Assembly: GCA_034440575.1 (NCBI GenBank)
Contig: JAOTOL010001511.1
Coordinates: 1,352,001 to 1,416,000 of the forward strand
Direction of reading: 5' to 3'
DNA length: 64,000 nt
DNA from: Imbricaverruca yamaguchii
Lineage: Eukaryota > Arthropoda > Thecostraca > Neoverrucidae
Both the position numbers and the translations under genes were made by a program. Under the pieces are notes generated by a model. That model worked only from the letters and a program-made list of their open reading frames with translations, was not told the origin of the DNA and ran no database searches. Numbering within the stretch: position 1 is the stretch's first letter; each line of letters begins with the position of its first letter. Below, in pieces: positions 5,146 to 64,000 of the stretch.

Positions 5146-5379
5146 CTGGCAGGTCAGGTCAGTGGGGTCAGGTCAATCGGGTCAGGTGTCGGGTCGGACC
5201 GGCAGGTGGCTGCACGTGCAGCCAGCCGCTACCACTTCCCAGATCTGATAAATACTGAACGGACCTTCCGGTCTAGGCAAGGTCTGGCAGAATCCGCCAG
5301 GTCGGACACACCGCCAAACCTGAGCTCGGCAGATCAGGTCAGCCACAGCTAGGCATTGCAGAACACCGACAGGGCCAGA

Positions 5380-5616
5380 TGCTGGTCAGACCCTGCAGTA
5401 CACTGACAGGGTCACTTAAGGGTCAGGCTCCGTAGTATACCGACAGTGTCATGTACAGGCCAGGCCCTGCTGTGCACCGACAGGGTCAGGTGCCTGTCCG
5501 ACCCTGCGGTACACCGACAGGGTCAGGCACCGGCCAGACCCTGCTGTACGCCGACAGGGTCATGCACGGGTCAGGCCTTACGGTACACCGACAGGGTAGC
5601 AGGGTGAGGTACTCAC
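5380..5616. repeat. 37-bp array adjoining a splice donor
   Basis: Units of about 37 bases follow the pattern GACCCTGCGGTACACCGACA plus GGGTCAGG and variable bases. The units share the block GGCCAGACCCTGC with the end of the SLC17 exon at 5617-5850, directly next to its donor. The array therefore appears to have grown from the exon-intron junction. Related GGTCAGG-rich sequence extends back to about 5150. Confidence 0.65.
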
Positions 5617-5850
5617 GCTGGCCAGACCCTGCAGGGCGCGGGCGACGATGAGCGCCTCCACCCGCCAGAGGGCGCACGCCGGCGTGAGCAGGGTGAGCAG
5701 GCCGGTGAGTCCGATGCCGGCGGTGAGCGTGCGCACGGCGCCGGCCCGCTCGGCCAGCCGGCCGCCCGGCACCTGCGACACGGTGTAGCCGACGAAGTAG
5801 GCGCTCAGGATGACGCCCTGAGTCAGCCCGCTCCAGACGAACGGGCCGTC
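5617..5850 (-). CDS. SLC17-like transporter, exon 2 of those visible
   Basis: The exon encodes DGPFVWSGLTQGVILSAYFV, then GYTVSQVPGGRLAERAGAVR and ends at the helix VARALQGLAS. This is the diagnostic SLC17 region W-x-x-x-x-Q-G-x-I-L-x-x-Y-F-x-G-Y-x-x-x-Q-x-P-G-G-x-L-A-E-R (TM2-TM3) followed by A-R-x-L-Q-G-L (TM4). It is 78 codons, phase 0 at both ends. The acceptor is TGTGTGACAG before GACGG and the donor is GTGAGT. The acceptor and first exon bases are repeated many times upstream (5851-7070). Confidence 0.9.
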
Positions 5851-7070
5851 CTGTCACACAGGCGGGGTGTGAGAGTGGGGGAGACTGTCAGGAGCGAACG
5901 GGCCGTCCTGTCACACAGGCGGGGCGTGAGAGTGGGGGAGACTATCAGGAGCGAACGGGCCGTCCTGTCACACAGGCGGGGTGTGAGAGTGGTGTGTCAG
6001 AGTGGGGGAGACTGTCAGGAGCGAACGGGCCGTCCTGTCACACAGGCGGGGCGTGAGAGTGGGGGAGACTATCAGGAGCGAACGGGCCGTCCTGTCACAC
6101 AGGCGGGGCGTGAGAGCGGTGTGTCAGAGTGGGGGAGACTGTCAGGAGCGAACGGGCCGTCCTGTCACACAGGCGGAGAGGGTGTGTCAGAGTGGGGGAG
6201 ACTGTCAGGAGCGAACGGGCCGTCCTGTCACACAGGCGGGTGTGAGAGTGGTGTGTCGAGTGGGGAGACTGTCAGGAGCGAACGGGCCGTCCTGTCACAC
6301 AGGCGGGGTGTGAGAGTGGGGGAGACTGTCAGAGCGAACGGGCCGTCCTGTCACACAGGCGGGGTGTGAGGGTGTGAGTGGGGGAGACTGTCAGGAGCGA
6401 ACGGGCCGTCCTGTCACACAGGCGGGGTGTGAGAGTGGTGTGTCAGAGTGGGGGAGGAGCAAGGCGTCCTGTACACAGGCGGGGTGAGAGGTGTGAAGGG
6501 GGGAGACTGTCAGGAGCGAACGGGCCGTCCTGTCACACAGGCGGGGTGTGAGAGGGGGGGAGACTGTAGGAGCGAACGGGCCGTCCTGTCACACAGGCGG
6601 GGTGGAGTGGTGTGTCAGAGTGGGGGAGACTGTCAGGAGCGAACGGGCCGTCCTGTCACACAGGCGGGGTGTGAGAGTGGTGTGTCAGAGTGGGGGAGAC
6701 TGTCAGGAGCGAACGGGCCGTCCTGTCACACAGGCGGGGCGTGAGAGTGGTGTGTCAGAGTGGGGGAGACTGTCAGGAGCGAACGGGCCGTCCTGTCACA
6801 CAGGCGGGGTGTGAGAGTGGTGTGTCAGAGTGGGGGAGACTGTCAGGAGCGAACGGGCCGTCCTGTCACACAGGCGGGGTGTGAGTGGTGTGTCAGAGTG
6901 GGGGAGACTGTCAGGAGCGAACGGGCCGTCCTGTCACACAGGCGGGGCGTGAGAGTGGTGTGTCAGAGTGGGGGAGACTGTCAGGAGCGAACGGGCCGTC
7001 CTGTCACACAGGCGGGGCGTGAGAGTGGTGTGTCAGAGTGGGGGAGACTGTCAGGAGCGAACGGGGCGTG
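5851..7070. repeat. Array carrying about 17 copies of a 3' splice junction
   Basis: Units of 58-75 bases each contain ACGGGCCGTCCTGTCACACA followed by GG. On the minus strand this is the acceptor CCTGTGTGACAG plus the first 13 bases of the adjacent SLC17 exon. I count 17 units with the junction intact and one damaged (near 6466). Units differ by presence of the GTGTGTCAGAGTG segment. The true exon at 5850 is the terminal unit. Confidence 0.9.
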
Positions 7071-7580
7071 AGGGAGGTGAGCGGTTCTCTCGTTGAGAGC
7101 GGTGTGTCAGAGTGGGGGAGACTATCAGAAGCGAACGGGGCGTGAGGGAGGTGAGCGGTTCTCTCGTTGAGAGCGGTGTGTCAGAGTGGGGAGACTATCA
7201 GGAGCGAACGGGGCGTGAGGGAGGTGAGCGGTTCTCTCGGAGAGCGGTGTGTAGAGTGGGGGAGACTATCAGGAGCGAACGGGGCGTGAGGGAGGTGAGC
7301 GGTTCTCTCGTTGAGAGCGGTGTGTCAGAGTGGGGAGACTGTCAGGAGCGAACGGGGCGTGAGGGAGGTGAGCGGTTCTCTCGTTGAGAGTGGTGTGTAA
7401 GAGTGGGGAGGCTATCAGGAACAAGCGGGGTGTGAGGGAGGTGAGCGGTTCTCTCGGCATGAGTGGTGTGTGAGAGTGGGGAGGCTATCAGGAACAAGCG
7501 GGGTGTGAGGGAGGTGAGCGGTTCTCTCGGCATGAGTGGTGTGTGAGAGTGGGGCAGTATATCAGGAACGAGCGGGGTGT
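7071..7580. repeat. Second sub-array lacking the splice junction
   Basis: Six to eight units of about 60-73 bases contain GAGCGAACGGGGCGTGAGG and GGTGAGCGGTTCTCTCG. They share the GGGGAGACTATCAGGAGCGA part with the preceding array but have lost the CCTGTCACACAGG acceptor block. This is the distal, more diverged end of the same array. Confidence 0.85.
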
Positions 7581-7930
7581 GAGGGAGGTGAGCAGACTTA
7601 TCCAGAGGAGCATGTTTCGAGGAATTAACTGCATGGGAACTTGGGAGACCATGGAGGGAGACACTGCGTCCTCTGTTTCACTTCACAGTGCTTTCCAGGC
7701 GATGATGATCGATGCACGCAAACAGATTGATTGATTGATTATTCGGGCTTAAGGGCGCATCGACTACTAAGGTCCTTTTGCGCCCAGCACGCACACAGAC
7801 GCACATTCACGCAAACATGCGACACATTGATGTTGACTACCACAGCTGCCGATTAGCAATGGGGATTGGCATCGACGCCGTCGCCAAGGGTGCAATTTGT
7901 GTGGCAGAGCATGCCGACCTTGTGTCTTCG
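7581..7930. other. Intron segment with possible retroelement tail
   Basis: A GATT tetranucleotide run at about 7722-7740 borders a segment (about 7740-7830) with GGGCGCATCGACTAC and TCCTTTTGCGCCC. Short ATTG-type tails followed by unique sequence can mark 3' ends of non-LTR elements. I cannot identify a family and no second copy is visible in the window. Confidence 0.3.
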
Positions 7931-8036
7931 TGTAGGTCAGGTTGGTGCTGGTACTGAACTCGGTCAGGTCAGGTTGGTGCTTGCACTGAACTCGGTCAGG
8001 TCAGCCGACACCGGCACTGACCTCAGTCAGGTCAGG
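7931..8036. repeat. Three-unit array spanning a splice donor
   Basis: Units of about 38 bases read GGTCAGGTTGGTGCTGGTAC plus TGAACTCGGTCA. The unit nearest the exon, GGCACTGACCTCAGTCAGG, is the donor junction of the SLC17 exon at 8022-8248. The two more distant units carry a T instead of G at the donor GT, so they are unlikely to function as donors. Confidence 0.6.
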
Positions 8037-8248
8037 TCCCGGCTGCCAGGTCGCGTTCCCTGTGTTGTTGGCGTCCCAGGTCGTGTTGTCGCCGGCCGAC
8101 GGTGGCGCGCTGGAGTTGGCGGACAGGCGAGCCACCGCCGTTCTGTTCACCATGGCCACGATCGCCATCGAGATGTTCACCCGCAGCGAAAACGACACGG
8201 AAAAGCCGAGGCAGCCGAGCACTGCCAGCGTGTGACGAACACCCCAGC
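8022..8248 (-). CDS. SLC17-like transporter, exon 1 of those visible
   Basis: The translation begins WGVRHTLAVLGCLGFSVSFS and continues LRVNISMAIVAMVN, the TM1 signature of the SLC17 family (Y/S-x-L-R-V-N-x-S-x-A-I-V-A-M-V). A luminal or extracellular loop follows with several N-glycosylation sequons (NRT, NSS, NTT, NNT, NAT), as expected between TM1 and TM2. The acceptor is TTCGCAG before GCTGGGG and the donor is GTCAGT. There are 227 bases, starting in phase 1, so at least one upstream coding exon is missing. The seven exons found together give about 391 residues of a protein usually 450-550 long. SLC17 members are proton- or sodium-coupled organic anion/phosphate transporters. Substrate cannot be read from this sequence. 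Confidence 0.88.
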
Positions 8249-18984: not shown

Positions 18985-21380
18985 TTGCTGCCCCACTGTG
19001 GGGTTGGCCTCTACTCAGCTGGTTTACACCAGTTTGTATCGGAACCTACCAGGCATGGTTCATTCTTGGACCTTGTATTCTCGGATTTAAGTGACTTGGT
19101 TCAAGACTTGACTGTAGGCGAAACTCTGGGAAAAAGTGACCATAACATAGTTAGATTCAGGCACATGTAGGGGAAACTATCAAGGATAATTTGGTAAGGT
19201 TCCAATTTCAACAAAGCAGACTTTAACGGCATGAGGCGGCTTTAAGTGCCATCAGATGGGAAGAAGAATTCTCCAATTTAAATGCCTGTGAAATGTGGGA
19301 AAGTTCAAATCTTACTTAAAGGAAACTCAGATTAGACATGTCCCCCAAAGCAAAGACGCAAAGAAGGGTAGGAAGCCAGCATGGCTTACACCAGGCGTGA
19401 TAAAAGCAATTAGGGCTAAGAAAACTGCATTTAGAGTTTTTAAAGAAGCCTCAAATGTCATTAATCTAAAGGCGTATCGAAAGCTAGAGACACTGTGAAG
19501 CAAAACCAGAGCAGCAAAGCGAGCAAAGGAACTGGATTTAGCTAGAAACTGTAATGGGGACAGTAAAAGTTCTTTAGTTTCTACAAGCTGAGTAAAGTTT
19601 CTAACACAATTGGTCCACTGGAGTAAACGGGACTACATTGGGTGAGGATAGTGAGATGGTTGAGGAGCTGAGCAAGCAGTTCAAATCAGTGTTTACATTG
19701 GAAGATATGACCAATCTGCCGACCGTACACCATGGTTCAGATACATGGGATCTGACAAATGATGTTGATTTATTGGTAGTGATGTTGTTTACAATCATAT
19801 CAGGAAAATAAAGCCAAATAAGGCAGCAGGACCTGATGATATTTATGCTAGGGTGTTGCGGGAAAACTGAAAGGAACTGGCATTTCCACTTAGTATAATA
19901 TTTTGTAGATCAGTTTCACATAATGAAATTCCAACCGATTGGAAAGGGCAAATGTAGTTCCTATTTTCAAGAAAGGAGAAAGAGGGAAAGTTGAAACTAT
20001 AGGCCAATAAGTCTCCATCCTAGTCTGCAGGTGCTCGAATCATTATCAAGGATAGAATAGTTAGTTATCTGGAAGGTAGCGATTGATTCAAGATACTCAA
20101 CATGGATTTAGAAAGGACGATCGTGTCTCACAAACCTCTTGGACTTTTTGAACTTCGCCACAGACAATTTGATCAGGAAATCAGGTTGATGTAGCATATC
20201 TTGACTTTAGTAAGGCCTTTGACAAGGTACCCCATAAACGGTTAATGATACAGCTTCAGTCCCATGGTATTGCGGGTAGCATCTTAAAATGGATAGAGTG
20301 TGGCTTTCAGATAGACAGCAAGAGTGATGCTAAATGGTACAAAGTCATCATGGCAAAATGTTCTTAGTGGAGTCCCCAGGGGTCAGTACTAGGGCCATTA
20401 CTGTTCATTATATTTGTAAATAACATTGAAAGTGGCCTAAGCAGTAAAGTTTTGAAATTTGCAGATGATTTGAAGGTCTTTAGGGCAATAACAGGTCGGG
20501 GTGAGCATATCTCGCTGCAAAAGACTTAGACGAACTTGTGAAGTGGTCCGAAGAATGGCAAATGAAATTTAACTTTGATAAGTGCAAAATCATGCATGTA
20601 GGTAAGCAGCATATGAAGGCTCCATACTTGATGGGTGGCCAAGCGCTTTCAGTGACTCAACAGGAGAAGGATTTAGGTGTTATTCTAAACACAAAATTGG
20701 GGGCATCAGAACAGACCAAGGAAGCCAGGAAGAAGGCACTGAGAATGTTCGGGGCAATAAATAGGAATGTATCATACAGAAGTGAGGAAGTGATCAGGAA
20801 GCTTTACTGTGCATACGTCAGGCCACATTTGGAATACTGCATCCAAGCTTGGTCTCTAGCTATGAAAAGATTGTTGGCTTTTAGAGAGAGTACAAAGAGG
20901 GCTACAAAAATGGTTAATGGCATAAGCAACCTGGCATATGAGGAAAGATTGAAGAAATTGAATATGTTTTCACTTAGATATAGAAGGCTGAGAGGAGATC
21001 TCTCGAGGTCTTTAAATTTGTCAATGGTCTGGAGAGGGGATACCTTGGGGAAATGTTTGAATTTAACAGAAATGATGCAATTAGAGGTCATAAATTCAAA
21101 ATTAAAATTAACCACAGCAGAACAAGGTTAAGGCAAACTTTCTTCACCAACAGGGTAGTGGAACACTGGAACCAGCTGCCAGAAAACATCGTCAGTAGCA
21201 GAACATTGAACATCTTTAAAAACAGCATAGACAATCATTATAAGAATAGAGGGCTTGCTTTTCAGTATTACAGGGAGGGCTGATTGGCAGATTTGGTGGG
21301 CAACTGGTTCAGTGTACAGAGTGCAACCAAGAAGGGCCTGTGGCTCAGAGTTGACTGATCTTTATGTCTTTATGTTTATG
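18985..21380 (+). mobile_element. CR1-like LINE, copy 2 (inactive)
   Basis: Plus-strand fragments run from the end of an endonuclease domain (FVSEPTRHGSFLDLVFSD then GKSDHNIV) through RT motifs (AGPDDIYARVL, DFSKAFDKVP-like, FADD-like) to a C-terminal segment. That segment includes KLYCAYVRPHLEYCIQAWS and NRVVEHWNQLPENI. Numerous frameshifts break the reading frame. It lies in intron 1 of GOT1 and is a reverse-oriented near-duplicate of 15842-17757. The 3' end is near the CTTTATGTCTTTATG repeat at 21360-21380. Confidence 0.88.
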
Positions 21381-24829: not shown

Positions 24830-26440
24830 CGGCGGTGTGGCCGGTGTCTGTTGTGCTGGTGTGGCCTGTGTCTGTTGTGCTGGTGTGGCTGGTGTCTGTT
24901 GTGCTGGTGTGGTTTGTGTTTGTTGTGCTGGTGTGGTCTGTGTCTGTTGTGCTGGTGTGGCCGGTGCCTGTTGTGCTGGTGTGGCTGTGTTGTGTGCTGG
25001 TGTGGCCTGTGTTTGTTGTGCTGGTGTGGCCGGTTGTTGTGCTGGTGTGGCTGTGTCTGTTGTGTGGTGTGGCTGATGTCTGTTGTGCTGGTGTGGCTGA
25101 TGTCTGTTGTGTTGGTGTGGCTGGTGTCTCTGTGCTGGTGTGGCTGTGTTTGTTGTGGTGTGGTGTCTGTTGTGCTGGTGTGGCTGGTGTCTGTTGTGCT
25201 GGTGTGGTGTGTCTGTTGTGCTGGTGTGGCTGTGCCTGTTGTGCTGGTGTGGCTTGTCTGTTGTGCTGGTGTGGTCTGTGTTTGTTGTGCTGGTGTGGCT
25301 GTGCTGTTGTGCTGGTGTGGCTGTGTCTGTTGTGTGGTGGTGTCTGTTGTGCTGGTGTGGTTGTGTCTGTTGTGCTGGTGTGGCCGGTGCCTGTTGTGCT
25401 GGTGTGGCTGGTGTCTGTTGTGCTGGTGTGGTGTCGTGTCTGTTGTGCTGGTGTGGTCTGTGTCTGTTGTGCTGGTGTGGTCTGTGTCTGTTGTGCTGGT
25501 GTGGTCTGTGTCTGTTGTGCTGGTGTGGCCGGTGCCTGTTGTGCTGGTGTGGCTGATGTCTGCTGTGCTGGTGTGGTCTGTGTCTGTTGTGCTGGTGTGG
25601 TTAGTGTCTGTTGTGCTGGTGTGGTCTGTGTCTGTTGTGCTGGTGTGGCCGGTGTCTGTTGTGCTGGTGTGGCTGTGTCTGTTGTGCTGGTGTGGTCTGT
25701 GTCTGTTGTGCTGGTGTGGTCTGTGTCTGTTGTGCTGGTGTGGTCTGTGTCTGTTGTGCTGGTGTGGCTGGTGTCTGTTGTGCTGGTGTGGCCTGTGTCT
25801 GTTGTGCTGTGTGGCTGGTGCCTGTGTGCTGTGTGGCTGATGTCTGTTGTGCGGTGCTGTGTCTGTTGTGCTGGTGTGGTCTGTGTGTTGTGTGGGGGTT
25901 GTCTGTTGTGCTGGTGTGGCTGATGTCTGTTGTGCTGGTGTGGTCGTGTCTGTTGTGCTGGTGTGGCCGGTGCCTGTTGTGCTGGTGTGGCTGATGTCTG
26001 CTGTGCTGGTGTGGCTGATGTCTGTTGTGCTGGTGTGGTTGTGTCTGTTGTGCTGGTGTGGTTAGTGTCTGTTGTGCTGGTGTGGCTGATGTCTGCTGTG
26101 CTGGTGTGGTCTGTGTCTGCTGTGCTGGTGTGGCTGTGTCTGTTGTGCTGGTGTGGCTGTGTCTGTGGCTGGTGTGGCTGTGTCTGTTGTGCTGATGTGG
26201 CGGTGCCTGTTGTGCTGGTGTGGCTGATGTCTGCTGTGCTGGTGTGGTCTGTGTCTGTTGTGCTGGTGTGACCGGTGCCTGTTGTGCTGGTGTGGCTGAT
26301 GTCTGCTGTGCTGGTGTGGTCTGTGTCTGTTGTGCTGGTGTGGCCGGTGCTGTCTGTTGTGCTGGTGTGGTCTGTGTCTGCTGTGCTGGTGTGGCCAGTG
26401 CCTGTTGTGCTGGTGTGGCTGGATGTCTGCTGTGCTGGTG
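24830..26440. repeat. 1.6 kb 24-bp minisatellite in GOT1 intron 2
   Basis: More than sixty tandem units follow GTGTCTGTTGTGCTGGTGTG plus GCCG/GCTG variants. Indels break the period in places. The 24-base period keeps frames open on both strands and creates long spurious proteins (VSVVLVWP-type and HTSTTDTG-type repeats), which I do not accept as genes. The strand bias is strong, with the plus strand nearly free of A. Confidence 0.97.
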
Positions 26441-36289: not shown

Positions 36290-37530
36290 TCCAAACCCAT
36301 GCAATCCCTCCACCTGTGCCACCACAGCCAATCTCATCAGTATGACATCGCAAGGAAGTTGCCAATATCCCATGCATCACAAGTTAGAATTCAAAAACAA
36401 CATTTTCCTGTCTAAAAAATTATCCACCCTACTTTTAAAGACATTCAATGAGGGACTCCCCACTGCATCAGCAGGCAGCCTATTCCATTGGTCAACAACC
36501 CTTTGACTGAAGACCTGTTGTCGTTTAACTGTCCTGCACCTCATTTTGTCTAACCTGAATTGATGACCCTATGGGATATTCTAAACTGCAGAGCATCATT
36601 CAAATTGACCTGATCTAGCCCTCTAACAATTTTGTACATTTCAATCATGTCTCCCTTAATCTCCTATATTTGAGTGAGTACATATCTAATGCATTAAGCC
36701 TTTCTCCATATTCTAAGTTACTTAATCCACTGACGAGTCTAGTGGCTTTGCGCTGGACTCTTTCTAACATATCTATATCCTTTTCTAGGTAGGGGCTCCA
36801 TGCTTGTACAGAGTACTCCAAGTGGGCCGCACATATCTAAGTACAGCTTTTTCATGACTTCCTGCTCTTATATTTACACTTCTATTAATGAGTCCCAGCA
36901 TTCTGAGTGCCCTATTTCTAGCTGAGATACATTGTTTTTCTGCTTTAAGATCTTTTGAGACCAACACACCTAAGTCCCTTTCCCTTCAATAACATCCAGT
37001 TCCTCCTCCCATTTTATAACTGAATGTCTCGCCTGCAGACCCTATATGCATAACCTTACACTTATCATAGTTGAAAGTCATCTGCCATTGATCAGCCCAC
37101 TCTTTTAGGTCGTCCAAATCTAGTTGAATATTACTAGATTGATCTCTGCTGTTAGCCACTCCTACCAGCTTGATGTCATCAGCAAATTTGAACACTCTAT
37201 TCCTCAGCCCTACTAATGTTGTTCACAAAGATGATAAAGAGGAGAGGCCCTAGAACAGAGCCCTGTGGCACTCCACTCAGAACATCTTTCCAACCAGATT
37301 TACATCCATTCAATACTACCCTTTGTTTCCTTCCCTGCAACCATGCTTCAATCCAATGTAGAACTTTTCCTACAATCCCATGTTGTTGTAATTGATGAAT
37401 TAACCTTCCATGTGGAACTTTATCAAAAGCTTTGCTAAAGTCCAAGTACACAACATCCATCCTGCTTTCTTTTGATACTTGGACAAATACTTGGTATCGC
37501 CGAAGTAAATACTTGAATCCTTGTTTGGTC
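36290..37530 (-). mobile_element. CR1-like LINE, copy 3 (different subfamily, inactive)
   Basis: Minus-strand fragments encode RT motifs: DVVYLDFSKAFDKVPHGRLI, then QRVVLNG and SGVPQGSVLGPLLFIIFVNN. They are followed by MFKFADDIKL, LKEWADQWQMTFNYDKCKVM and a C-terminal QVFSQRVVDQWNRLP-like tail. It diverges from copies 1 and 2, with a different residue after FADD and a different 3' end. Frameshifts (near 36830 and 37195) show inactivity. The 5' part, including the endonuclease, is missing. Confidence 0.85.
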
Positions 37531-38234
37531 ATTAAGGTGCTTTGAATATGCAATTGAAGGACATTTTGCTAGACAATTTTTTAGACACAATGAGCCCATT
37601 CAATGCAAAAGACTCACTATAAAATTCCTCAGTGGCTCCGAAGCAAGCAAGTGCTCTGAGGCAATGACACAAAGAAACCAATCCCACTTGTGAACTTATG
37701 GTTATGAATGACTGTAAAAAATTTGTTGGGGGGAATGTGCTCCAACTTACTCCTGCCGAGAGCAGGGGCAGCTTGGAGCAACTTGGAGTATCACAAATGT
37801 GGCGCTGACGATACATTTGCGAAGCGCTTTGAGGAATCTGCGTAATTTGCGTCAACAAGTTTTGAACATCTGCGTCATATATGTAACCATAATGCAAGTA
37901 CAAACAGCTGATTTTTACTCCAAGTTACTCCAGACATTCTAGCGCTCGTTTTTCCCGAGCCTGCTCCGAACTGTTCCAAGTTGCTCCAAGTTGCGCTACT
38001 ATTGATCAGGAACAGACCCATAGTGTTGCGCAAAGCAAAAGATCAGTGAAGTTCTTGTGTTGGCAGTATGCCACTGATAAACATGTGTTCAAAGTTTCTA
38101 ATCGTCATGACGTCATATAAAAAATACCCTGCACCGATTGATTGAACAACGGTTTTTAGAACAGAAAATGCTAACGGAGCAAACACTGGCCGGCGGCCTC
38201 CAGGACTCCGAAATACGTCTCTTAAAACTGTCAC
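37531..38234. other. Spacer before the foldback element
   Basis: Mixed unique sequence. Repeated small words such as TTGGAGCAACTTGGAGTA and GTTGCTCCAAGTTGC occur but no gene is recognised. Confidence 0.45.
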
Positions 38235-41200
38235 TTTTTCCCGGGTGGGTCTACTCCGTTCCCCTGGGCTGTTGCCGTGACCATATTCAGAAACTACCGA
38301 ACCAAATTCCACCAAACCTTCACCAATCGATTCAGTTGGGTCGATTTATGTGGGACTTTTGAATATGGGGACTCTTACCGTTACGCAAAGCTATAAAATT
38401 ACCCCTCAAACTTGGGGCGGCCATTTTGAAATCATTTTGAAAGTGTTGCCGTGCCCATGCTCATAAACCGCTGCACCGAATTGAACGAAACCTTCACCAA
38501 TCGATGCAGCATAGTCGATTTACTTGGGACTTTAAAATATGGTGACCTTGACCTTGACCTAAGGTCGCTGATTAAGTACATCTTTATTTTGAATTGTTGC
38601 CGTGACCATGCTCCTAAACTACTGAACCGAATTTCGTGAAACCTTCACCAATAGACGTGACATGGTCGATATACCTGGGACTTTTGAATATGGTGACCTT
38701 GGCCTTAGGTCAAGGTCATCAAAAAAGCACAAAACCATTTTTAAGACTTTTAACCACGCCCATACTCTGAAACTACCCAATACAATTTCATGAAACCTTC
38801 ACAAATCGACGTAACGTGTTCGGTATACGTGGGACTTTGAATATCATGACCTTGACCTTAGGTCAAGGTCACCAAAATCCCAAAAATCGTTTTCTTGCCT
38901 ATTTGACACGCCCATGCTCCCAAAGTACCGAACCGAATTTGATGAAACATTCACCAATCGACGTGGAATGGGCGATATATTCTGGAGTTTAAATATAATG
39001 ACCTTGGCCCTAGGTCAAGGTCATCAAAAATGCATAAAACTCATTTTAATGGTTGTTGCGCCGCCCATGCTCCGAAAGTACGGAACCGAATTTCATGAAA
39101 CCTTCGCCAATCGACGTGCCGTGGTCGATATACTTGGGACTTTTCAATATGGTGACGTCGGCCCTAGGTCAAGGTCATAAAAAGTGTATAAAACTCATTT
39201 TAATGGTTATTGCGCCGCCCATGCTCCGAAAGGACGGAACCGAATTTCATGAAACCTTCGCCAATCGACGTGCCGTGGTCGATATACTTGGGACTTTTCA
39301 ATATGGTGACCTCGGCCCTAGGTCAAGGTCATAAAAAATGCACAAAACTCATTTTAATGGTTGTTGCGCCGCCCATGCTCCGAAAGTACGGAACCGAATT
39401 TCATGAAACCTTCACCAATCGACGTGCCGTGGTCGATATACTTGGGACTTTTCAATATGGTGACCTCGGCCCTAGGTCAAGGTCATGCAAAATGCATAAA
39501 ACTCATACCACTGCTCACCAAACGACCGAAATATAAACGTATTGCAGTACCATACACGGCATAAAATAGCAAATGCGGGCACAGTCTAACACGACCACGC
39601 ACCTAGAAGACAGCAGCAGACGCAAGGGAAATACGTTGACCTTGGGAGCCCATAAATAGTCATGGTCAATCATGTTATATAAATTTGTTGTAAAGTAGTT
39701 ACTGGGAACAACGTATGGCTTGGTCGGCGTCATGTAAAGGATATAAATGACAATCATCATATTCAAGAGCCGAAAGTATATCGACCACGGCACGTCGATT
39801 GGCGAAGGTTTCATGAAATTCGGTTCCGTACTTTCGGAGCATGGGCGGCGCAACAACCATTAAAATGAGTTTTATGCATTTTGTATGACCTTGACCTAGG
39901 GCCGAGGTCACCATATCGAAAAGTCCCAAGTATATCGACAACGGCACGTCGATTGGCGAAGGTTTCATGAATTCGGTTCCGTATTTCGGAGCATGGGCGG
40001 CGCAACAACCATTAAAATGAGTTTTATGCATTTTGATGACCTTGACCTAGGGCCAAGGTCACCATATTGAAAAGTCCCAAGTATATCGACCACGGCCGTC
40101 GATTGGTGAAGGTTTCATGAAATTCGGTTCCGTACTTTCGGAGCATGGGCGGCGCAACAACCATTAAAATGAGTTTTGTGCATTTTTATGACCTTGACCT
40201 AATGTCGACGTCACCATATTGAAACGTCCCAAGTATATCGACCACGGCACGTCGATTGGTGAAGGTTTCATGAAATTGGTTCCGTACTTTCGGAGCATGG
40301 GCGGCGCAACAACCATTAAAATGAGTTTTGTGCATTTTTTATGACCTTGACCTAGGGCCGAGGTCACCATATTGAAAAGTCCCAAGTATATCGACCACGG
40401 CACGTCGATTGGCGAAGGTTTCATGAAATTCGGTTCCGTCCTTTCGGAGCATGGGCGGCGCAACAACCATTAAAATGAGTTTTATACACTTTTGATGACC
40501 TTGACCTAATGCCGAGGTCACCATATTGAAAAGTCCCAAGTATATCGACCACGGCACGTCGATTGGCGAAGGTTTCATGAAATTCGGTTCCGTACTTTCG
40601 GAGCATGGGCGACGCAACAACCATTAAAATGAGTTTTATGCATTTTTGATGACCTTGACCTAGGGCCAAGGTCATCATATTTAAACTCCAGAATATATCG
40701 CCCATTCCACGTCGATTGGTGAATGTTTCATCAAATTCGGTTCAGTACTTTGGGAGCATGGGCGTGTCAAATAGGCAAGAAAACGATTTTGGGGATTTTG
40801 GTGACCTTGACCTAAGGTCAAGGTCATGATATTCAAAGTCCCACGTATATCGAACACGTTACGTCGATTTGTGAAGGTTTCATGAAATTGTATTGGGTAG
40901 TTTCAGAGTATGGGCGTGGTTAAAAGTCTTAAAAATGGTTTTGTGCTTTTTTGATGACCTTGACCTAAGGCCAAGGTCACCATATTCAAAAGTCCCAAGT
41001 ATATCGACCATGTCACGTCTATTGGTGAAGGTTTCACGAAATTCGGTTCAGTAGTTTAGGAGCATGGTCACGGCAACAATTCAAAATAAAGATGTACTTA
41101 ATCAGCGACCTTAGGTCAAGGTCAAGGTCACCATATTTTAAAGTCCCAAGTAAATCGACTATGCTGCATCGATTGGTGAAGGTTTCGTTCAATTCGGTGC

Positions 41201-41440
41201 AGCGGTTTATGAGCATGGGCACGGCAACACTTTCAAAATGATTTCAAAATGGCCGCCCAAAGTTTGAGGGGTAATTTTATAGCTTTGCGTAACAGTAAGA
41301 GTCCCCATATTCAAAAGTCCCACATAAATCGACCCAACTGAATCGATTGGTGAAGGTTTGGTGGAATTTGGTTCGGTAGTTTCTGAATATGGTCACGGCA
41401 ACAGCCCACGGCAACAGAGTAGACCCACCCCTTTTTCCCA
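38235..41440. mobile_element. 3.2 kb foldback structure of 154-bp repeats
   Basis: Left arm (about 38235-39525) and right arm (about 39770-41440) are reverse complements unit by unit. Matching ends are GGGTGGGTCTACTCCGTT on the left and AGTAGACCCACCCC on the right. Each arm is a tandem of about 154-base units (seven or eight left, nine or ten right). Each unit carries a palindrome of the form TGACCTTGACCT(T/A)AGGTCAAGGTCA, degraded to CTCGGCCCTAGGTCAAGGTC in inner units. A non-repetitive loop (39530-39765) separates the arms. There is no transposase frame, so it resembles a non-autonomous foldback element or an inverted duplication of a satellite. Open frames on both strands follow the repeats. 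Confidence 0.82.
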
Positions 41441-46267: not shown

Positions 46268-48817
46268 ATGGTCACTGCAGCACCTGCTGGTAGTGACAAC
46301 CCAGCTGAGCTCCTCAAACTCCACTATGTATGCTGTTTGGCCCAGTGCAGATGGAGTTCAGGCTTGCACGTGCCAGTGCGGGATTGCCTAGGGCAGACCA
46401 GAGATGCTTGGTCGCTTGGCATCATTGTCAAGGTCATTCCACATGCACCCAAAAGTGGCGTCCAAGCGGTGATGATGAGCGAGGTGCTGCCGGACGGCAC
46501 CGTCGCCAGCCCGCCCATCCGGGTGTGGTTCTGCGACGGCTACTGGCAGCGCGCCAGGGAGCTGGTCCGAGAGAAGGACGTGCTGTGCTTCTGGTCGCCG
46601 ACGGTGAGCGCCTTCATGGGCGACTACCTGCTCTCCGGCCAGGGCATCATGGTGGTGGCCGACCGCTCCGAGCCGGGTCGTACCGCGCTGTTCCGACTGA
46701 CGGGCCGGCCCGGCTGCCGCACCTGCCGGCCGCACCCGGCGGCACACGGTGGGCCGTCGCGCGCCAAGAAGCGGCGTGTGGTCGTACAGGACAGGGAGGC
46801 GCAAACTGCCACTACTGCACCACTGACGACCGCCTCTGTCGTACAGGACAGGGAGGCGCACACTGCCACTACTGCACCACTGGCGACCGCCTCTGTCGTA
46901 CAGGACAGGGAGGCGCACACTGCCACTACTGCACCACTGGCGACCGCCTCTGTCGTACAGGACAGGGAGGCGCACACTGCCACTACTGCACCACTGACGA
47001 CCGCCTCTGTCGCCGAACCAGACCCGGAGCCGGAGCCGGCACAAGGGCCGGCGCAAGAGCCGACGCAAGAGTCGGCGCAAGAGCCGACGCAAGAGCCGGC
47101 GCAAACTTTGGAGCCGCGGACCGTCACCCACGAATCCCACGCCGGGCAGAGATCGCCCTCCCCCGTGCAGCCGGCGGATGACGCGTCGCCAGCGACTGGA
47201 AGTCCGGACTCGCCGGTGCTGCCGGTTGTGGCGGCCGAGTTCATGCTGCGCGTGCCGGCCAGCGACCCGGCCAACCCGTACACCCTGCTGTCGGCCGTGG
47301 GCCGCGACGACCCCGACCTGCGGCGGCGGCCGCACGTGATGGGCGTCATCGTGGCGGTGCCGCAGCCGGCGCGCCGCACCCGCCGCGGCCTGATGGTGAT
47401 GGCCGCCATCAAGGACCCGTCGTGCTGCGTGGACACGTCGCCGCGCCACGACCTGATCGTGTTCGTGTTCGTGGGCTCGAGCGCCGAGCTGCCCGACGCG
47501 ACGCCCGACCACGGCTTCCAGCTCGGCAACGTGCTGCGCGTGCGGCACGTCAAGATCGAGCGGCGCAACGGCAAGCTGGACGGCCGCGTGTTCCAGGGCT
47601 CGGCGGTGGCGGTGTTCTCGAGCGGCGTGGACGAGCCGCTGGCGCCGCTCGGCACGCGCTCCGGCGCCAGTCCGCTGACGGACGCGGAGCGTGCGCGGCT
47701 GGTGTGGCTGCGCCGCTGGTGGCGCCACCAGCGGCGCTGGCAGGCCGTGCTGGACAGCGCCACCGACGCCACCATCGAAGATCTGCTGCGGCCCGGTCTG
47801 TACCACCTGCACTGCGAGGTGGTGTGTCTGACGGACGCCGTCGGCCGGCGCCCCGCCTACCTGCACGTGCGCGACGGCAGCCGCACGCGGGCGCTGTTCG
47901 TGGAGCCGAGGCTGGAGCCGGACAGCGGTGCCAGCTCGTCATGTTCCCCCGAGACGCAGCTGCTGCGTGGAAACGCCCACAGCCTACACGTGCGCGTGGC
48001 GGACCAGCGGTGTGTGGCGGCGCTACAGCAGCTGGTCGCCGTGCAGCGGCTGCGTTATGTGCAGCTGCTGCGGATGCGGGTCGTCAGCGCGCTGGTTGAC
48101 AGCGAGACTGAGGCGCTGGAGGTGGAGCTGCGGCCCGCCGACGAGCCGCTGGTGCTGCAGCTGGAAGCCGAGTCGGCGGCGGCCACGCACCTCCGCCAGC
48201 GACTGGAGACGGTGGACGCTATGGAACGGGTCAGCCCCGTCAGCCCAGGCGGACAGGCGGCGCCAACAGAGCGGAGGCAAGCAGCGGCGGCTCCCACCCA
48301 GCCGGGGCAGGAAGTGGTGTCTCCCGCCCAGCCGGGACAGGAAGTGGTGTCTCCCGCCCAGCTTGGGGAGGAGATGGTGTCTTCCGGCCAGCCGGGACAG
48401 GAAGTGGTGTCTCCCGCCCAGCTTGGGCAGGAGATGGTGTCTCCCGGCCAGCCGGGGCAGGAAGTGGTGTCTCCCGCCCAGCCGGGACAGGAAGTGGTGT
48501 CTCCCGGCCAGCCGGGACAGGAAGTGGTGTCTCCCGCCCAGCCGGGGCAGGAAGTGGTGTCTCCCGGCCAGCCGAGGCAGGAAGTGGTGTCTCCCGGCCA
48601 GCTGGGGCAGGGAAGGCAGGACATGATAGCTCTTGTTCAGTCGAAACCGGAGGCAGGAACTGGGGAACAGGCTGCATCTGTTTTGGCCGTCACCAAACGT
48701 GTGCTCGATGATTCCACGTCGGGATTAGTGAAGAAGGTGCCTCGTGTCTCTGGTCACGCCCAACCGGAACAGGCCGCCCACACCGACCGGCCAGAATCGC
48801 CAAGGACACGCGGGACG
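46268..48817 (+). CDS. POT1: POT1-like telomere-protection protein, coding exon 1
   Basis: The exon opens after TTGTTTACAG (46246-46255), with ATG at 46268 (MVTAAPAGSDNPAE). It ends at 48817 before GTGAGC: 850 codons, phase 0. Residues about 45-145 look like an OB fold (GIIVKVIPHAPKSGVQAVMM...). Residues about 325-453 match POT1 OB1 (PHVMGVIVAVPQPARRT..., then GNVLRVRHVKIERRNGKLDG). Residues 468-484 (LTDAERARLVWLRRWW) match the POT1 inter-OB linker. About 500-640 match OB2 (GLYHLHCEVVCLTD...AYLHVRDGSRTRALF). POT1 binds single-stranded telomeric DNA within shelterin. Two coding minisatellites interrupt the protein (46788-47017 and 48293-48605). Very GC-rich third positions give an equally long but meaningless frame on the other strand. 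Confidence 0.8.
46788..47017 (+). repeat. In-frame 57-bp coding minisatellite in POT1
   Basis: Four units of 57 bases encode VVQDREAHTATTAPLATAS with minor differences. They are followed by a short EPTQESAQEPTQEPAQ run (47035-47105). The period is a multiple of three, so copy-number change keeps the reading frame. It separates the N-terminal OB-like region from OB1. Confidence 0.95.
48293..48605 (+). repeat. In-frame 30-bp coding minisatellite in POT1
   Basis: About ten to eleven units of 30 bases encode QEVVSPAQPG, with SPGQ, SPAQL and SSGQ variants. It lies in the linker between OB2 and the C-terminal domain, a region that is also unstructured in other POT1 proteins. Confidence 0.95.
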
Positions 48818-49830: not shown

Positions 49831-50340
49831 TATGGCATTGAATCTGGTGAAAATGGACCAGTTTACGCCTGTAGTTGTGTTTTCCAAGCTAAAAGTTAAC
49901 TTATATTGCATAGCAATTTCCTTGCATTTTGCCATGTTATGTAAGAATATGTGCCAGCAACATGGCTTAGCCTTCGCAGACTGTGCGGCAGAACTTGCTA
50001 TCGTCGTAAGCGGTCCGTCAATTTGACCCTTTCCACTGGCTCCTTTTGTAGGTCAGGAAACACATCTCTGTCCAACGGCGTTGCGTAGCTCCGTCCTCAA
50101 ACTATCGAGAGTTAATAAGAGCGTTTTTGGTTACCTAAATCGGTTGACATTTTTGGACGTGCTTCTCTGTCGCTTAGGGAAACATTAGGCGACGAGTCAT
50201 CCATTGTCCAATCGATGCGCCCCGAAACTTAAATAACCAACCAATTTCAAGTCTAGTTAAGTAGGTCTATGTTGGAGTGAATCCAGGCACCCGGTCGTGG
50301 CCGTTGTACTCAGAGCCTGGTCTTCCGACAGATTCCGACA
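49831..50340. other. Remainder of POT1 intron
   Basis: No element recognised. A short TCTTCCGACAGATTCCGACA duplication at 50321-50340 begins the junction array. Confidence 0.5.
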
Positions 50341-50560
50341 GGGGACGTGTACGTCATATCGGCTGGTCGGTGAGACTGCAACGGATGTGTGTCTTCCGAC
50401 AGGGGGCGTGTGCGTCGTATGATCTGGTCGGTGAGGCTGTAACGGATGTTTGTCTTCCGACAGGGGGCGTGTGCGTCGTATGATCTGGTCGGTGAGGCTG
50501 TAACGGATGTGTGTCTTCCGACAGGGGGCGTGTGCGTCGTATGATCTGGTCGGTGAGCAG
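50341..50560. repeat. 61-bp array of a POT1 3' splice junction
   Basis: Acceptors of the form TTCCGACAG/GGG end at 50341, 50402, 50463 and 50524, exactly 61 bases apart. Each is followed by about 33 bases CGTGTGCGTCGTATGATCTG plus GTCGGTGAG. After the last acceptor this block runs straight into conserved coding sequence (CAGATCAGCCTGCTC). The first copy is the most diverged. Confidence 0.85.
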
Positions 50561-51441
50561 ATCAGCCTGCTCGCCACGCAGCAGTCCTCACAGGGCGCCA
50601 ACACCGAGGGATTCGTCACGGCACCGCAGTCTCCGTCGGCTGCTCCGGCGTGCCCCAGCGAGCCTCCAGCGACGACGGCCGCCTCGCCGAGTACCTCAGC
50701 TCCGGCGGCCTCCCCGCAACACTCGGCGGCACCGGCCGCCTCCCCACAACACCGGCGGCGCCGGCCGCCTCCCCACAACCCGCGGCGCCGGCCGCCTCCC
50801 CACAACACTCGGCAGCGCCGGCTGCCTCCCCACAACGCGCGGCGGCGGCCGCCTCCCCACAACACTCGGCAGCGCCGGCTGCCTCCCCACAACCGGCGGC
50901 GGCTGGCTCGTCGCCACCCGTGCTGAGAGTGCTGGACGCGCGGCTGCCCAGGTGCTCTCTCCAGCAGCTGACCGACTGGCCGGCCGGCCAGCCGTGCCAG
51001 CTCCAGTGTCGCGTGCAGTGCGGCCGACTGGCGGCCGCGCCCGGCGGCCTGCTTGACCTGCTGTCGGCCGTCTGCACGCGCTGCGACATCCAGCTGAGCG
51101 GCGACGCGCTGCCGGCCGTGCGGCTGTCGCCGCGGCTGGAGCTGGAGCACCACTGTCCGCGCTGTCGGCGGCCGGTCCGGCTGGTGCTGACGCTGCCCCT
51201 GCGGCTGCGCGCCGCGCGCGGCCGGCTGCGGCTGCCGGCGCTGCTGACCGGTGACCCGGCCGAGCGGCTCCTGGGCGCGCCGGTGCGGCCGGCCGCGCTG
51301 CCGGCGCTCTGGACTCGCGTGCGCCGGGTCGCCGACGCGCTGGCCGGCTGGCCGCTGGCGCAGGTGGGCGTGATCCCGTGCGCGCTGCCTGACGGTCAGC
51401 GGCAGTACCTGGTGGTGGACACGGTGCTGGCGGCCGACTAG
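50525..51441 (+). CDS. POT1: POT1-like protein, C-terminal exon (one-base deletion)
   Basis: The exon begins in phase 0 at GGGGCG (50525), or alternatively at ATCAGC (50561) after GGTGAGCAG. Residues ISLLATQQSSQGANTEGF lead to an APAASPQ repeat. About 50752 one base is missing between two repeat copies, so the frame changes from the 50525 frame to that of the C-terminal part. The end matches the POT1 C-terminal OB3: CSLQQLTDWPAGQPCQL, then CTRC (about 51070) and CPRC (about 51155) as the zinc pair. The final WPLAQVGVIPCALPDG and QYLVVDTVLAAD align with the POT1 C terminus. The Holliday-junction-resolvase-like insertion of vertebrate POT1 is absent. Stop TAG is at 51439-51441. Confidence 0.78.
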
Positions 51442-56703: not shown

Positions 56704-56896
56704 ATGAAGAAAAAGGAGTACACAGCAGTGAGTCTGGAGGACACAGAAGCCAACACCAAGCAGACAAACTACAATTCAGCATTCAATTATGAGTCTGCCT
56801 TTGATTTCCGATCCATTGCCAAGTTTAATCAGGCATCTTTTCCATCAAAATCATACTTCACATTTACCAAACAGGCCGGCCCACCTAAGGAGACAG
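56704..56896 (+). CDS. STOML1: Stomatin-like 1 (STOML1/UNC-24) N-terminal exon
   Basis: The exon opens after TGTCTTTCAG at 56690-56699, with ATG at 56704 (MKKKEYTAVSLEDTEANT). It ends at GAGACAG/GTAAGT with one base over (64 codons plus one). The N-terminal pattern Y-x-A-x-x-L-x-D resembles the start of STOML1, and the last base joins the exon at 58995 in frame. The rest (NYESAFDFRSIAKFNQ, SYFTFTKQAG) is not clearly conserved. Assignment depends on phase, direction and position. Unlike the next exons it is CpG-poor. Confidence 0.65.
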
Positions 56897-58486: not shown

Positions 58487-58994
58487 TGACGTCACTGTCC
58501 TACGTGTCCAGTGGCAGACGTCAGCTGTCTGACCCGGCCTGTGACGTCACTGTCCTCCGTGTCCAGTGGCCGACGCCAGCTGTCTGGCCCGGCCTGTGAC
58601 GTCACTGTCCTCCGTGTCCAGTGGCCGACGCCAGCTGTCTGGCCCGGCCTGTGACGTCACTCGTCCTCCGTGTCCAGTGGCCGACGCCAGCTGTCTGGCC
58701 CGCCCTGTGACGTCACTGTCCTCCGTGTCCAGTGGCCGACGCCAGCTGTCTGGCCCGGCTGGTGACGGCCGCCCTGTGACGTCACTGTCCTCTGTGTCCA
58801 GTGGCCGACGCCAGCTGTCTGGCCCGGCTGGTGACGGCCGCCCTGTGACGTCACTGTCCTACGTGTCCAGTGGCCGACGCCAGCTGTCTGGCCCGCCCTG
58901 TGACGTCACTGTCCTCCGTGTCCAGTGGCCGACGCCAGCTGTCTGGCCCGGCTGGTGACGGCCGCCCTGTGACGTCACTGTCCTCCGTGTCCAG
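58487..58994. repeat. Array of eight copies of a STOML1 3' splice junction
   Basis: Units of 54-69 bases contain TGTGACGTCACTGTCCTCCG, the acceptor TGTCCAG and then TGGCCGACGCCAGCTGTCTG, which is the first 20 bases of the exon at 58995. Longer units (58741, 58801 and 58921 lines) add a further 24 exon bases (GCCCGGCTGGTGACGGCC...). The most upstream copy is the most diverged. Every unit also carries a TGACGTCA palindrome. Confidence 0.92.
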
Positions 58995-59251
58995 TGGCCG
59001 ACGCCAGCTGTCTGGCCCGGCTGGTGACGGCCGCCCTGCTGGCGCTGGTGTACGCGCTGGTGCTGGCGACGCTGCCAGTGACCGGCTGGTGGACGGTGCG
59101 GCGCGTGCAGCGGTGGCAGCGGCTGGTGGTGTTCCGCGTTGGCCGGGCGCTGGCGATGCGCGGCCCCGGCTGGACCCTGCTGCTGCCCTGGCTGGACGTC
59201 CACCACACGGTGGACCTGCGCAACAAAGCGATCCTGGTGCCGCCGCAGCAG
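58995..59251 (+). CDS. STOML1: Stomatin-like 1, exon with hairpin helix and SPFH start
   Basis: Starting at TGGCCGAC after TGTCCAG, the frame reads VADASCLARLVTAALLALVY, then TLPVTGWWTVRRVQRWQRLV. It continues VFRVGRALAMRGPGWTLLLP and WLDVHHTVDLRNKAILVPPQ. It matches STOML1: SCL, the membrane hairpin, F-P-I/V-S/T-G-W, R-x-I/V-V-F-R-x-G-R, G-P-G-x-x-x-L-L-P and D-L-R. Stomatin-like 1 is a membrane-hairpin SPFH protein that in nematodes (UNC-24) works with MEC-2 type stomatins. The exon ends in phase 0 at CAGCAG/GTACGG. A usable acceptor is repeated eight times upstream. Confidence 0.88.
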
Positions 59252-59649
59252 GTACGGGCACGCCATGTTCTGCCGCAGCCACCCGACCTCCGCCGCTAGT
59301 CTGTACTGTTGGTGTGCATCTGTGAATATCTGATCAACATTATATGACGTGCTATCTGATGAAAGGTGGCCTTTCTTCTCTGAGAGAACATGCGCTGCTC
59401 CGGTGGAGTTCTTTTCCATATTTCAAGTGCCAGCTTTGCCTGCTAAGACATTCAAAAACAGTATTTGCAGTTAGAAGGCCCTTTATCCGATTCGTATCCA
59501 AGGACCACATGGCAGCAAATGTGGCTTTGCGACCAGTTTCCTCTTCATACTTTTGCTAGAAATGTTTGCATTATGCGGATACGGGTGGGTGAGCTCTTAA
59601 ATATGGTCAATTGTGAGAATAATGATATGCCTGAGTGCATGTTTGCTCC
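59252..59649. other. STOML1 intron 2, unique part
   Basis: No element recognised before the array begins at about 59650. Confidence 0.55.
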
Positions 59650-62402
59650 AGAGGTTACTCCAGCTGATCACCTGTGACGGCGCTGTGGTGGAGCTCGGTG
59701 TCAGGTGCTGTACCGGACCTCTGTTGTGACATCTCCAGCTGATCACCTGTGACGGCGCTGTGCCGGAGCTCGGTGTCAGATGCTGTACCGGACCTCTGTT
59801 GTGACGTCTCCAGCTGATCACCTGTGACGGTGTGGTGGAGCTCGGTGTCAGGTGCTGTACCGGACCTCTGTTGTGACGTCTCCAGCTGATCACCTGTGAC
59901 GGTGTGCTGGAGCTCGGTGTCAGGTGCTGTACCGGACGTCTGTTGTGACGTCTCCAGCTGATCACCTGTGACGGTGTGCTGGAGCTCGGTGTCAGATGCT
60001 GTACCGGACTCTGTTGTGACGTCTCCAGCTGATCGCCTGTTGTGACGTCTCCAGTTGATCACCTGTTGTGACGTCTCCAGTTGATTACCTGACGGCGCTG
60101 TGGTGGAGCTCGGCGGTGTCAGGATGCTGTACCGGACCCTGTTGTGACGTCTCCAGTTGATCACCTGTGACGCTGTGGTGGAGCTCGGCGGTGTCAGATG
60201 CTGTACCGGACCTCTGTTGTGACGTCTCCAGCTGATCACCCGTGACGCTGTGCTGGAGCTCGGTGTCAGATGCTGTACCGGACCTCTGTTGTGACGTCTC
60301 CAGCTGATCACCTGTGACGGTGTTGTGGTGGAGCTCGGTGTCAGGTGCTGTACCGGACCTCTGTTGTGACGTCTCCAGCTGATCACCTGTTGTGACGTCT
60401 CCAGCTGATCACCTGTTGTGACGTCTCCAGTTGATTACCTGTGACGGTGTGGTGGAGCTCGGTGTCAGATGCTGTACCGACCTCTGTTGTGACGTCTACA
60501 CCTGTTGTGACGTCTCCAGTTGATCACCTGTTGTGACGTCTCCAGTTGATCACCTGTGACGGCGCTGTGGTGGAGCTCGGTGTCAGGTGCTGTACCGGAC
60601 CTCTGTTGTGACATCTACAGCTGATCTCTGTGACGTCTCCAGCTGATCACCTGTGACGGCGCTGTGGTGGAGCTCGGTGTCAGGTGCTGTACCGGACCTC
60701 TGTTGTGACATCTCCAGCTGATCACCTGTGACGGTGTGGTGGAGCTCGGTGTCAGATGCTGTACCGGACCTCTGTTGTGACGTCTCCAGCTGATCACCTG
60801 TTGTGACGTCTCCAGCTGATCACCTGCTGTGACGTCTCCAGCTGATCACCTGTTGTGACGTCTCCAGCTGATCACCTGTTGTGACGTCTCCAGCTGATCA
60901 CCTGTTGTGACGTCTCCAGCTGATCACCTGTTGTGACGTCTCCAGCTGATCACCTGCTGTGACGTCTCCAGCTGATCACCTGTTGTGACGTCTCCAGCTG
61001 ATCACCTGTTGTGACGTCTCCAGCTGATCACCTGTGACGGCGCTGTGGTGGAGCTCGGTGTCAGATGCTGTACCGGACCTCTGTTGTGACGTCTCCAGCT
61101 GATCACCTGATGTGACGTCTCCAGCTGATCACCTGTTGTGACGTCTCCAGCTGATCACCTGTTGTGACGTCTCCAGCTGGTCACCTGATGGGGCGTCTCC
61201 AGCTGATCACCTGTTGTGACGTCTCCAGCTGATTACCTGTTGTGACGTCTCCAGCTGATCACCTGTTGTGACGTCTCCAGTTGATTACCTGTGACGGTGT
61301 GGTGGAGCTCGGTGTCAGATGCTGTACCGGACCTCTGTTGTGACATCTCCAGCTGATCACCTGTGACGGTGTGGTGGAGCTCGGTGTCAGGTGCTGTACC
61401 GGACCTCTGTTGTGACGTCTCCAGTTAATCACCTGTTGTGACGTCTCCAGTTGATCACCTGTTGTGACGTCTCCAGCTGATCACCTGTTGTGACATCTCC
61501 AGCTGATCACCTGTTGTGACATCTCCAGTTGATTACCTGTTGTGATGTCTCCAGTTAATCACCTGTTGTGACGTCTCCAGTTGATCACCTGTTGTGACGT
61601 CTCCAGCTGATCACCTGTTGTGACGTCTCCAGCTGATCACCTGTTGTGACGTCTCCAGTTGATTACCTGCTGTGACGTCTCCAGCTGATCACCTGTTGTG
61701 ACGTCTCCAGTTGATTACCTGTTGTGATGTCTCCAGTTAATCACCTGTTGTGACGTCTCCAGTTGATCACCTGTTGTGACGTCTCCAGCTGATCACCTGT
61801 TGTGACGTCTCCAGCTGATCACCTGTTGTGACGTCTCCAGTTGATTACCTGCTGTGACGTCTCCAGCTGATCACCTGCTGTGACGTCTCCAGCTGATCAC
61901 CTGTTGTGACGTCTCCAGCTGGTCACCTGCTGTGACGTCTCCAGCTGATCACCTGTTGTGACGTCTCCAGTTGATCACCTGTTGTGACGTCTCCAGCTGA
62001 TCACCTGTGACGGCGCTGTGGTGGAGCTCGGCGCCGAGGTGCTGTACCGGACCTCTGTTGTGACGTCTCCAGCTGATCACCTGTTGTGACGTCTCCAGCT
62101 GATCACCTGTTGTGACGTCTCCAGCTGATCACCTGTGACGGCGCTGTGGTGGAGCTCGGCGCCGAGGTGCTGTACCGGACCTCTGTTGTGACGTCTCCAG
62201 CTGATCACCTGTTGTGACGTCTCCAGCTGATCACCTGATGTGACGTCTCCAGCTGATCACCTGTTGTGACGTCTCCAGCTGATCACCTGTTGTGACGTCT
62301 CCAGTTGATCACCTGTGACGGTGTGGTGGAGCTCGGTGTCAGGTGCTGTACCGGACCTCTGTTGTGACGTCTCCAGCTGATCACCTGTTGTGACGTCTCC
62401 AG
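59650..62402. repeat. 2.75 kb array of a STOML1 3' splice junction
   Basis: Two interleaved units occur. The short one (26 bases) reads TTGTGACGTCTCCAGCTGAT plus CACCTG. The long one (about 75 bases) adds TGACGGCGCTGTGGTGGAGC, TCGGTGTCAGGTGCTGTACC and GGACCTCTG. Both begin with the intron end GTGACGTCTCCAG and continue with the first 11 or about 57 bases of the exon at 62403. Units near the exon (about 62030 and 62158) share its exact TCGGCGCCGAGGTG, while distant units have TCGGTGTCAGGTG. More than sixty CTCCAG acceptors are present. Confidence 0.95.
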
Positions 62403-62558
62403 TTGATCACCTGTGACGGCGCTGTGGTGGAGCTCGGCGCCGAGGTGCTGTACCGGATCTGCGACCCGCTCACGTTCGTCGGCGCCTGTGTCGACCCGTC
62501 GATGCTGCTCCGCTCCCTGGCCAAGACGACACTGGTCAGCACGCTGTCTGCGCAGGAG
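62403..62558 (+). CDS. STOML1: Stomatin-like 1, SPFH-domain exon
   Basis: The exon encodes LITCDGAVVELGAEVLYRIC then DPLTFVGACVDPSMLLRSLA and KTTLVSTLSAQE. It matches the SPFH segment of STOML1 in which D-G-A-V-x-x-V/L-G-A-x-V-x-x-R-I-x-D-P is conserved. It is 52 codons, phase 0 at both ends, with acceptor GACGTCTCCAG and donor GTAGGC. The exon's own 5' end is the terminal unit of the 2.75 kb array. Confidence 0.9.
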
Positions 62559-63905: not shown

Positions 63906-64000
63906 CTCTCTGTGATTGTCAAAAGGAGTTCTGAAGTGGAGGAAACTGTACTGCTGAGCATCAACAGCCAAATCAAGGACTGGGGAATGGAGGCGTCTGC
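63906..64000 (+). CDS. STOML1: Stomatin-like 1, next exon (cut by window edge)
   Basis: The exon begins in phase 0 and encodes LSVIVKRSSEVEETVLLSIN then SQIKDWGMEAS. This matches the SPFH helix before L-L-x-x-I-N-x-x-x-x-x-W-G-x-E-V in STOML1. The remaining SPFH sequence and any C-terminal SCP2-like domain lie beyond the right edge. Confidence 0.85.

Follow-up and report, generated by a model that had tools for sequence, protein, structure and literature searches.

A tandem array of splice-junction copies makes up most of STOML1 intron 2 in a barnacle

The window, the whole 64,000-nucleotide stretch of barnacle DNA analysed here, carries a STOML1 gene together with TMEM216, GOT1, SLC17-like and POT1-like genes; the features discussed below are collected in Table 1. 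The name STOML1 comes from the match of the joined exon model to predicted STOML1 proteins, with alignment identities of 63-69% to those of Amphibalanus amphitrite (P0020) and Pollicipes pollicipes (P0021) and to P0022. In P0021 and P0022, the join of exons 2 and 3 is exact and uninterrupted (PPQQ/LITCDGAV in P0021, PPQQ/LLTCDGAV in P0022; slashes mark splice junctions throughout). Pfam searches with single STOML1 exons gave no match. TMEM216 (PF09799) had a best match of 85% and was 83% identical to its counterpart in Pollicipes pollicipes, a thoracican barnacle, 76% to that of Amphibalanus amphitrite and 43-48% to those of three named decapods. Amphioxus, a host that the mirage papers discussed below had brought to mind, was rejected on this result. 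Rfam and ARAGORN scans of the window found nothing. Open reading frames at 16170-17757, 20505-21131 and 37197-37568 resemble pieces of LINE-type reverse transcriptases. Two arrays with 154-base units (38606-39506 and 39754-41239) have consensuses that by eye look like mutual reverse complements.

Table 1. STOML1 exons and junction-associated arrays in the window (positions count from its first letter)
Feature	Position	Strand	Description
STOML1 exon 1	56714-56896	+	
STOML1 exon-2 acceptor array	58487..59038	+	eight upstream copies, 55-56 or 69 bases, of GTGTCCAG/TGGCCGACGCC; exon start 58995
STOML1 exon 2	58995..59251	+	donor CAGCAG/GTACGG at 59252; phase 0 at exon end
STOML1 intron-2 junction array	59664..62402	+	71 tandem units, nearly all combining 12 or 50-56 exon-3-like bases at the head with an intron tail ending CTCCAG
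STOML1 exon 3	62403..62558	+	52 codons, phase 0; functional last copy; barnacle STOML1 proteins align across the join
STOML1 exon 4	63906-64000	+	exon start 63906
SLC17-like acceptor array	5838..7593	-	exon 5850-5617; 17 upstream GTGTGACAG/GACGGC copies, spacing 56-119 bases
Donor-side array, SLC17-like exon A	7934..8037	-	CTGACTGAG/GTCAGT, then two copies with TT for GT
Donor-side array after SLC17-like exon B	5357..5597	-	intron repeats words of the exon tail (GCAGGGTCTGGCC and variants); donor not kept; weak
POT1-like acceptor array	50333..50557	+	three upstream 61-base copies of CTTCCGACAG/GGGGCGTG, outermost diverged; exon start 50525

The array in STOML1 intron 2 was found with TRF and by direct reading, and its units were defined by cutting after each acceptor. 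Its 71 units account for 2739 of the 3151 bases of the intron, 87% of which is made from copies of its own 3' end; the initial 12 bases of exon 3 also fall inside the TRF-called array. By length there were 50 short units (26 bases each), 19 long units of 70-76 bases (seven of 75, seven of 72, three of 76 and one each of 71 and 70) and two odd ones (22 and 19 bases). The hexamer preceding the unit was CTCCAG in 69/71 cases and CTACAG in one, and one had lost the AG. A typical short unit consists of 12 exon bases, the first usually C for T, followed by the intron tail; 26 of the 50 equal the consensus, and the mean number of differences is 0.78. Long units carry 50-56 exon-like bases, 80-96% identical to the exon over the alignment, and then CCTCTGTTGTGACGTCTCCAG or a near variant. 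Read by eye, the intronic tail common to most short and long units is the 18-base CTGTTGTGACGTCTCCAG. The earlier note on this DNA had taken the units for copies of a splice junction and the true exon for the last of them. Both readings were confirmed, and exon 3 starts at 62403 after the 71 upstream units. The authentic junction adjoins the copies and is attached to intact exon 3, with tandem units spanning the exon-intron boundary.

The edges of the units bear on how the array arose. Short and long units have a common intronic edge and different exonic edges, from which we infer that at least two duplications were needed. At the short-unit join, CTGT, read by eye, occurs both in ACCTGTGACG on the exon side and in CTGTTGTGACG on the tail side. 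At its left end the array matches the unit tail in CTCCAG alone, and the founding duplication has therefore not been retained.

Junction copies of this kind recur in the window. The real exon edge is the last unit in four acceptor arrays belonging to three genes, and the earlier note's claim that the architecture recurs at other exons was thus borne out at three more acceptors (58995, 5850 and 50525). The two SLC17-like donors are weaker instances, and at the exon-B donor the 18-base junction word itself is without any copy. The label POT1-like is putative; a Pfam search gave no match for the gene. Its reading frames contain minisatellites at 46781-47012, 47033-47104, 48291-48611 and 50697-50901, with periods of 57, 12, 30 and 30/57, each divisible by three. 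Near GOT1 junctions, three arrays come to within 11-46 bases without including any exon base; one of the GOT1 introns contains a 1.6-kb array of a 24-base unit (24834-26440) that ends 46 bases before the acceptor, likewise without exon bases. Exons were GC-rich (0.64-0.77) with or without arrays, the exceptions being STOML1 exons 1 and 4 (0.44 and 0.49), neither of which adjoins an array holding exon bases. Because exon GC is high regardless of arrays, these data show no link to biased gene conversion, and we rejected it as a candidate.

It had also been claimed that exon-proximal units are the more exon-like ones and that the array grew from the exon edge. Thirteen of the 19 long units have their starts in the interval 59664-60718; nearer the exon, short units predominate. 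The two long units that agree best with the exon (61997 and 62125, matching exon bases 2-55) do lie fairly near it, but the nearest long unit of all, at 62305, belongs to the diverged type. The relation of position to exon identity over the 19 long units was not significant (Spearman 0.35, p 0.145). In this array, therefore, growth from the exon edge is weakly indicated, by a trend that falls short of significance. Elsewhere, the outermost copy was the sole changed one in the compared stretch of the STOML1 exon-2 array (3/25 bases) and the POT1-like array (6/33), and roughly the outer third of the SLC17-like acceptor array is built of 71-74-base units without the GTGTGACAG/GACGGC acceptor. A polarity of growth across the arrays is plausible, though not proved.

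We assessed whether arrays mark junctions with 22 modelled junctions in four genes, a set drawn up with the arrays in view, and 33 merged arrays of period at least 10 covering 20.3% of the window. SLC17 and STOML1 joins were checked against homologues; for GOT1, exon 4 alone was compared, and the positions of the other exons are presumed from the general GOT1 sequence. The exact donor site of SLC17 exon A was inferred and lies in an unconserved tail, and the POT1-like gene entered the set because its array had been seen. Overlap of arrays with exon boundaries, named beforehand in the earlier note as the test that could refute a general process, was not above chance in the window: 5/22 junctions lay inside arrays, against 4.4 expected under rotation and 7.0 under gene or local jitter. 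The 18-base word test agreed (5, against 4.4 under rotation and 7.4 under jitter). With 20% of the window occupied by arrays, overlap stands at chance level; the signal resides in where array edges fall.

An array edge lay within 60 bases of 11/22 junctions, compared with 2.4 under rotation (reached in 0/4877) and 2.97 under gene jitter (0/4000). The count was robust to removing POT1 (10/21; 2/3730), to removing both POT1 and arrays shorter than 100 bases (9/21 against 1.78; 3/3730), and to a 100-base limit (12/22; 7/3730). Five of these 11 close edges belong to arrays holding exon bases by their TRF limits and six to arrays without, including the three at GOT1. Moreover, the five junction-containing arrays enter the exon by just 12-44 bases, where 0.94 such cases would be expected from rotation (8/4877) and 1.13 from jitter (8/4000). 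When arrays were confined to their own introns, 9/18 junctions had an edge within 60 bases, against 2.9 (0/4000), or 3.9 if 45 exon bases were allowed (3/4000). At a 20-base limit the count was 5, against 1.05 (3/4000) or, more weakly, 1.7 with 45 exon bases allowed (44/4000). Arrays crossing into the exon numbered 4, where the null allowing 45 exon bases gives 1.3 (about 100/4000), a mild excess. Acceptors accounted for most close edges (8/12; 0/3730 rotations); donors alone were not significant (3/10; 278/3730), and neither was the difference between acceptors and donors (Fisher p 0.20). The idea of a general process thus drew support in this window from edge position, under rotation, jitter and intron-confined controls, but not from overlap.

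The array presents the spliceosome with many candidate sites. Two decoys reproduce the true acceptor exactly from -29 to +11, and 43/71 agree with it at 38 or more of these 40 bases. Given this near-identity, either a feature other than the local site presumably favours the last copy, such as exon definition together with the donor, or selection among the copies is leaky and decay removes the wrong products. Reading from the upstream acceptors through to exon 3, 0/71 stayed open and in frame, the first stop falling at codon index 3-30. Judged by open in-frame extension of exon 3, then, no unit (0/71) behaves as a member of an array of alternative coding exons. The earlier note's picture of dozens of candidate acceptors, some placed before coding sequence, held for the acceptors and their exon-like heads, but not for an open reading frame.

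Two further features of the decoys were considered and set aside. In 47/71 decoys, the unit before has within its exon-derived head a YTNAY word (YTGAT) whose A sits at -23. We rejected the supply of branch points by this exon-derived word: no YTNAY occurs in the 50 bases that precede the STOML1 exon-2 and POT1-like acceptors, and such words arise often by chance. Of 72 copies, 71 keep the A of the acceptor and 71 the G, a count biased toward the acceptor word because units were cut at it, and six other tail columns are kept equally well. We therefore make no claim of selection for the AG.

We conclude that the STOML1 array is most likely a junction-spanning minisatellite, a "mirage" in the terminology taken up below, that grew by duplication, was largely neutral, and lengthened the intron without moving the splice site. 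On this model, small tandem duplications would have captured the last ~18 intron bases with 12 or about 55 exon bases, perhaps starting from microhomology at the CTGT common to exon head and intron tail. Both nested units would then have multiplied by slippage, which we favour, or by unequal exchange. Since all the duplicates precede an exon that is itself unchanged, neither the reading frame nor the last acceptor is lost; the array is therefore tolerated and the intron simply becomes longer. The last acceptor is presumably the one used in cells, and the array most likely has no selected function.

Three other explanations were weighed against a largely neutral junction-spanning minisatellite. 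The array could be an ordinary intronic minisatellite that happened to reach the exon, the junction not having seeded it. Arrays make up 20% of the window, their overlap with junctions is at chance, and the three arrays near GOT1 junctions stop short of exon bases, all as this explanation would have it. It accounts poorly, however, for exon bases in nearly all 71 units (up to 55 in long ones), for exon bases in four acceptor arrays, and for the clustering of edges at junctions under all three kinds of control, and we consider it improbable. Slightly less probable still is a regulatory role, in which decoys compete with the true acceptor and stop-containing products tune the level of STOML1 by decay. 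The early stop after every upstream acceptor (71/71), the intact hexamers (69/71) and the YTNAY words at -23 would suit such a role, but chance alone would produce early stops over these lengths and YTNAY words in plenty, and six other tail columns are as well preserved as those of the A and G. The array also leaves no trace in the predicted STOML1 proteins P0021 (Pollicipes) and P0022, although proteins could not reveal an intronic array.

An assembly artefact, in which a small genuine repeat had been inflated or mis-stacked, seems to us very unlikely. There is a precedent in an amphioxus globin mirage that was apparently wrongly assembled in the draft (PMC3087553). The STOML1 units nevertheless differ by point changes and indels, in ordered mixtures of two types, and three further acceptor arrays occur in the window; the copy number could still be wrong.

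Beyond this locus, we offer only tentatively the proposal that acceptor-seeded duplication is a recurrent route of intron lengthening in barnacles, copying exon heads into the preceding intron independently of amphioxus. In the predicted Amphibalanus STOML1 (P0020), 12 extra residues lie exactly at the exon 2/exon 3 join (ILVPPQQ-VRDSSSLVPLQQ-LLTSD). At the protein level the insert looks like a translated second copy of the exon-2 end and donor, its VR being compatible with GTNCGN, and hints at duplication of the opposite junction of STOML1 intron 2 in another barnacle. In protein P0084, the SLC17 exon-B segment is flanked by apparent non-repeat intron sequence, so the SLC17-like array is probably not common to the source of that protein. 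Were the acceptor bias to hold across the genome, something local that causes breakage or slippage at 3' splice sites would be implicated, and both intron growth and the choice among near-identical acceptors would become directly testable. The STOML1 array itself offers a ready-made case for asking how the spliceosome settles on the last of about seventy nearly identical acceptors.

Ordinary intronic and coding minisatellites have the same size range and turnover as the STOML1 array. They differ from it in that the STOML1 unit consists of an exon edge plus acceptor, with the exon itself as the last copy. The tandem-duplication models of intron gain (Rogers; Gao and Lynch; as cited in PMC3087553) likewise involve internal duplication carrying splice signals, but STOML1 shows an existing intron growing and no new intron. 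The closest relatives are the mirages of amphioxus, and the process, which the earlier note had not seen described under a name, accordingly has one (PMC3087553, PMC3902484). As described there, mirages are minisatellite-like tandem units lying across either exon boundary, with splice signals kept in many copies, in Adh3, troponin C and the globins BflGb6 and BflGb9, with similar repeats in PGBD5; units measure 10-72 bases in Adh3 and 150-160 in the globins (PMC3087553, PMC3902484). Those authors suggest that regular splicing is undisturbed, and length and somatic instability are cited for Adh3 (PMC3087553, PMC3902484). The STOML1 units similarly span the intron-exon boundary and keep the splice signal. 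They differ in copy number, with 71 in STOML1 where two BflGb6 haplotypes have 3 and 6 (PMC3087553), in having two nested units with one common intronic edge, in the presence of several such arrays within one 64-kb window, and in their host, a barnacle and not a cephalochordate. In the literature searched for barnacles, crustaceans and other hosts, no mirage was found outside cephalochordates; as far as that literature shows, the STOML1 array is a mirage in a new phylum. Several mirages in 64 kb of barnacle DNA suggest that the process is no peculiarity of amphioxus.
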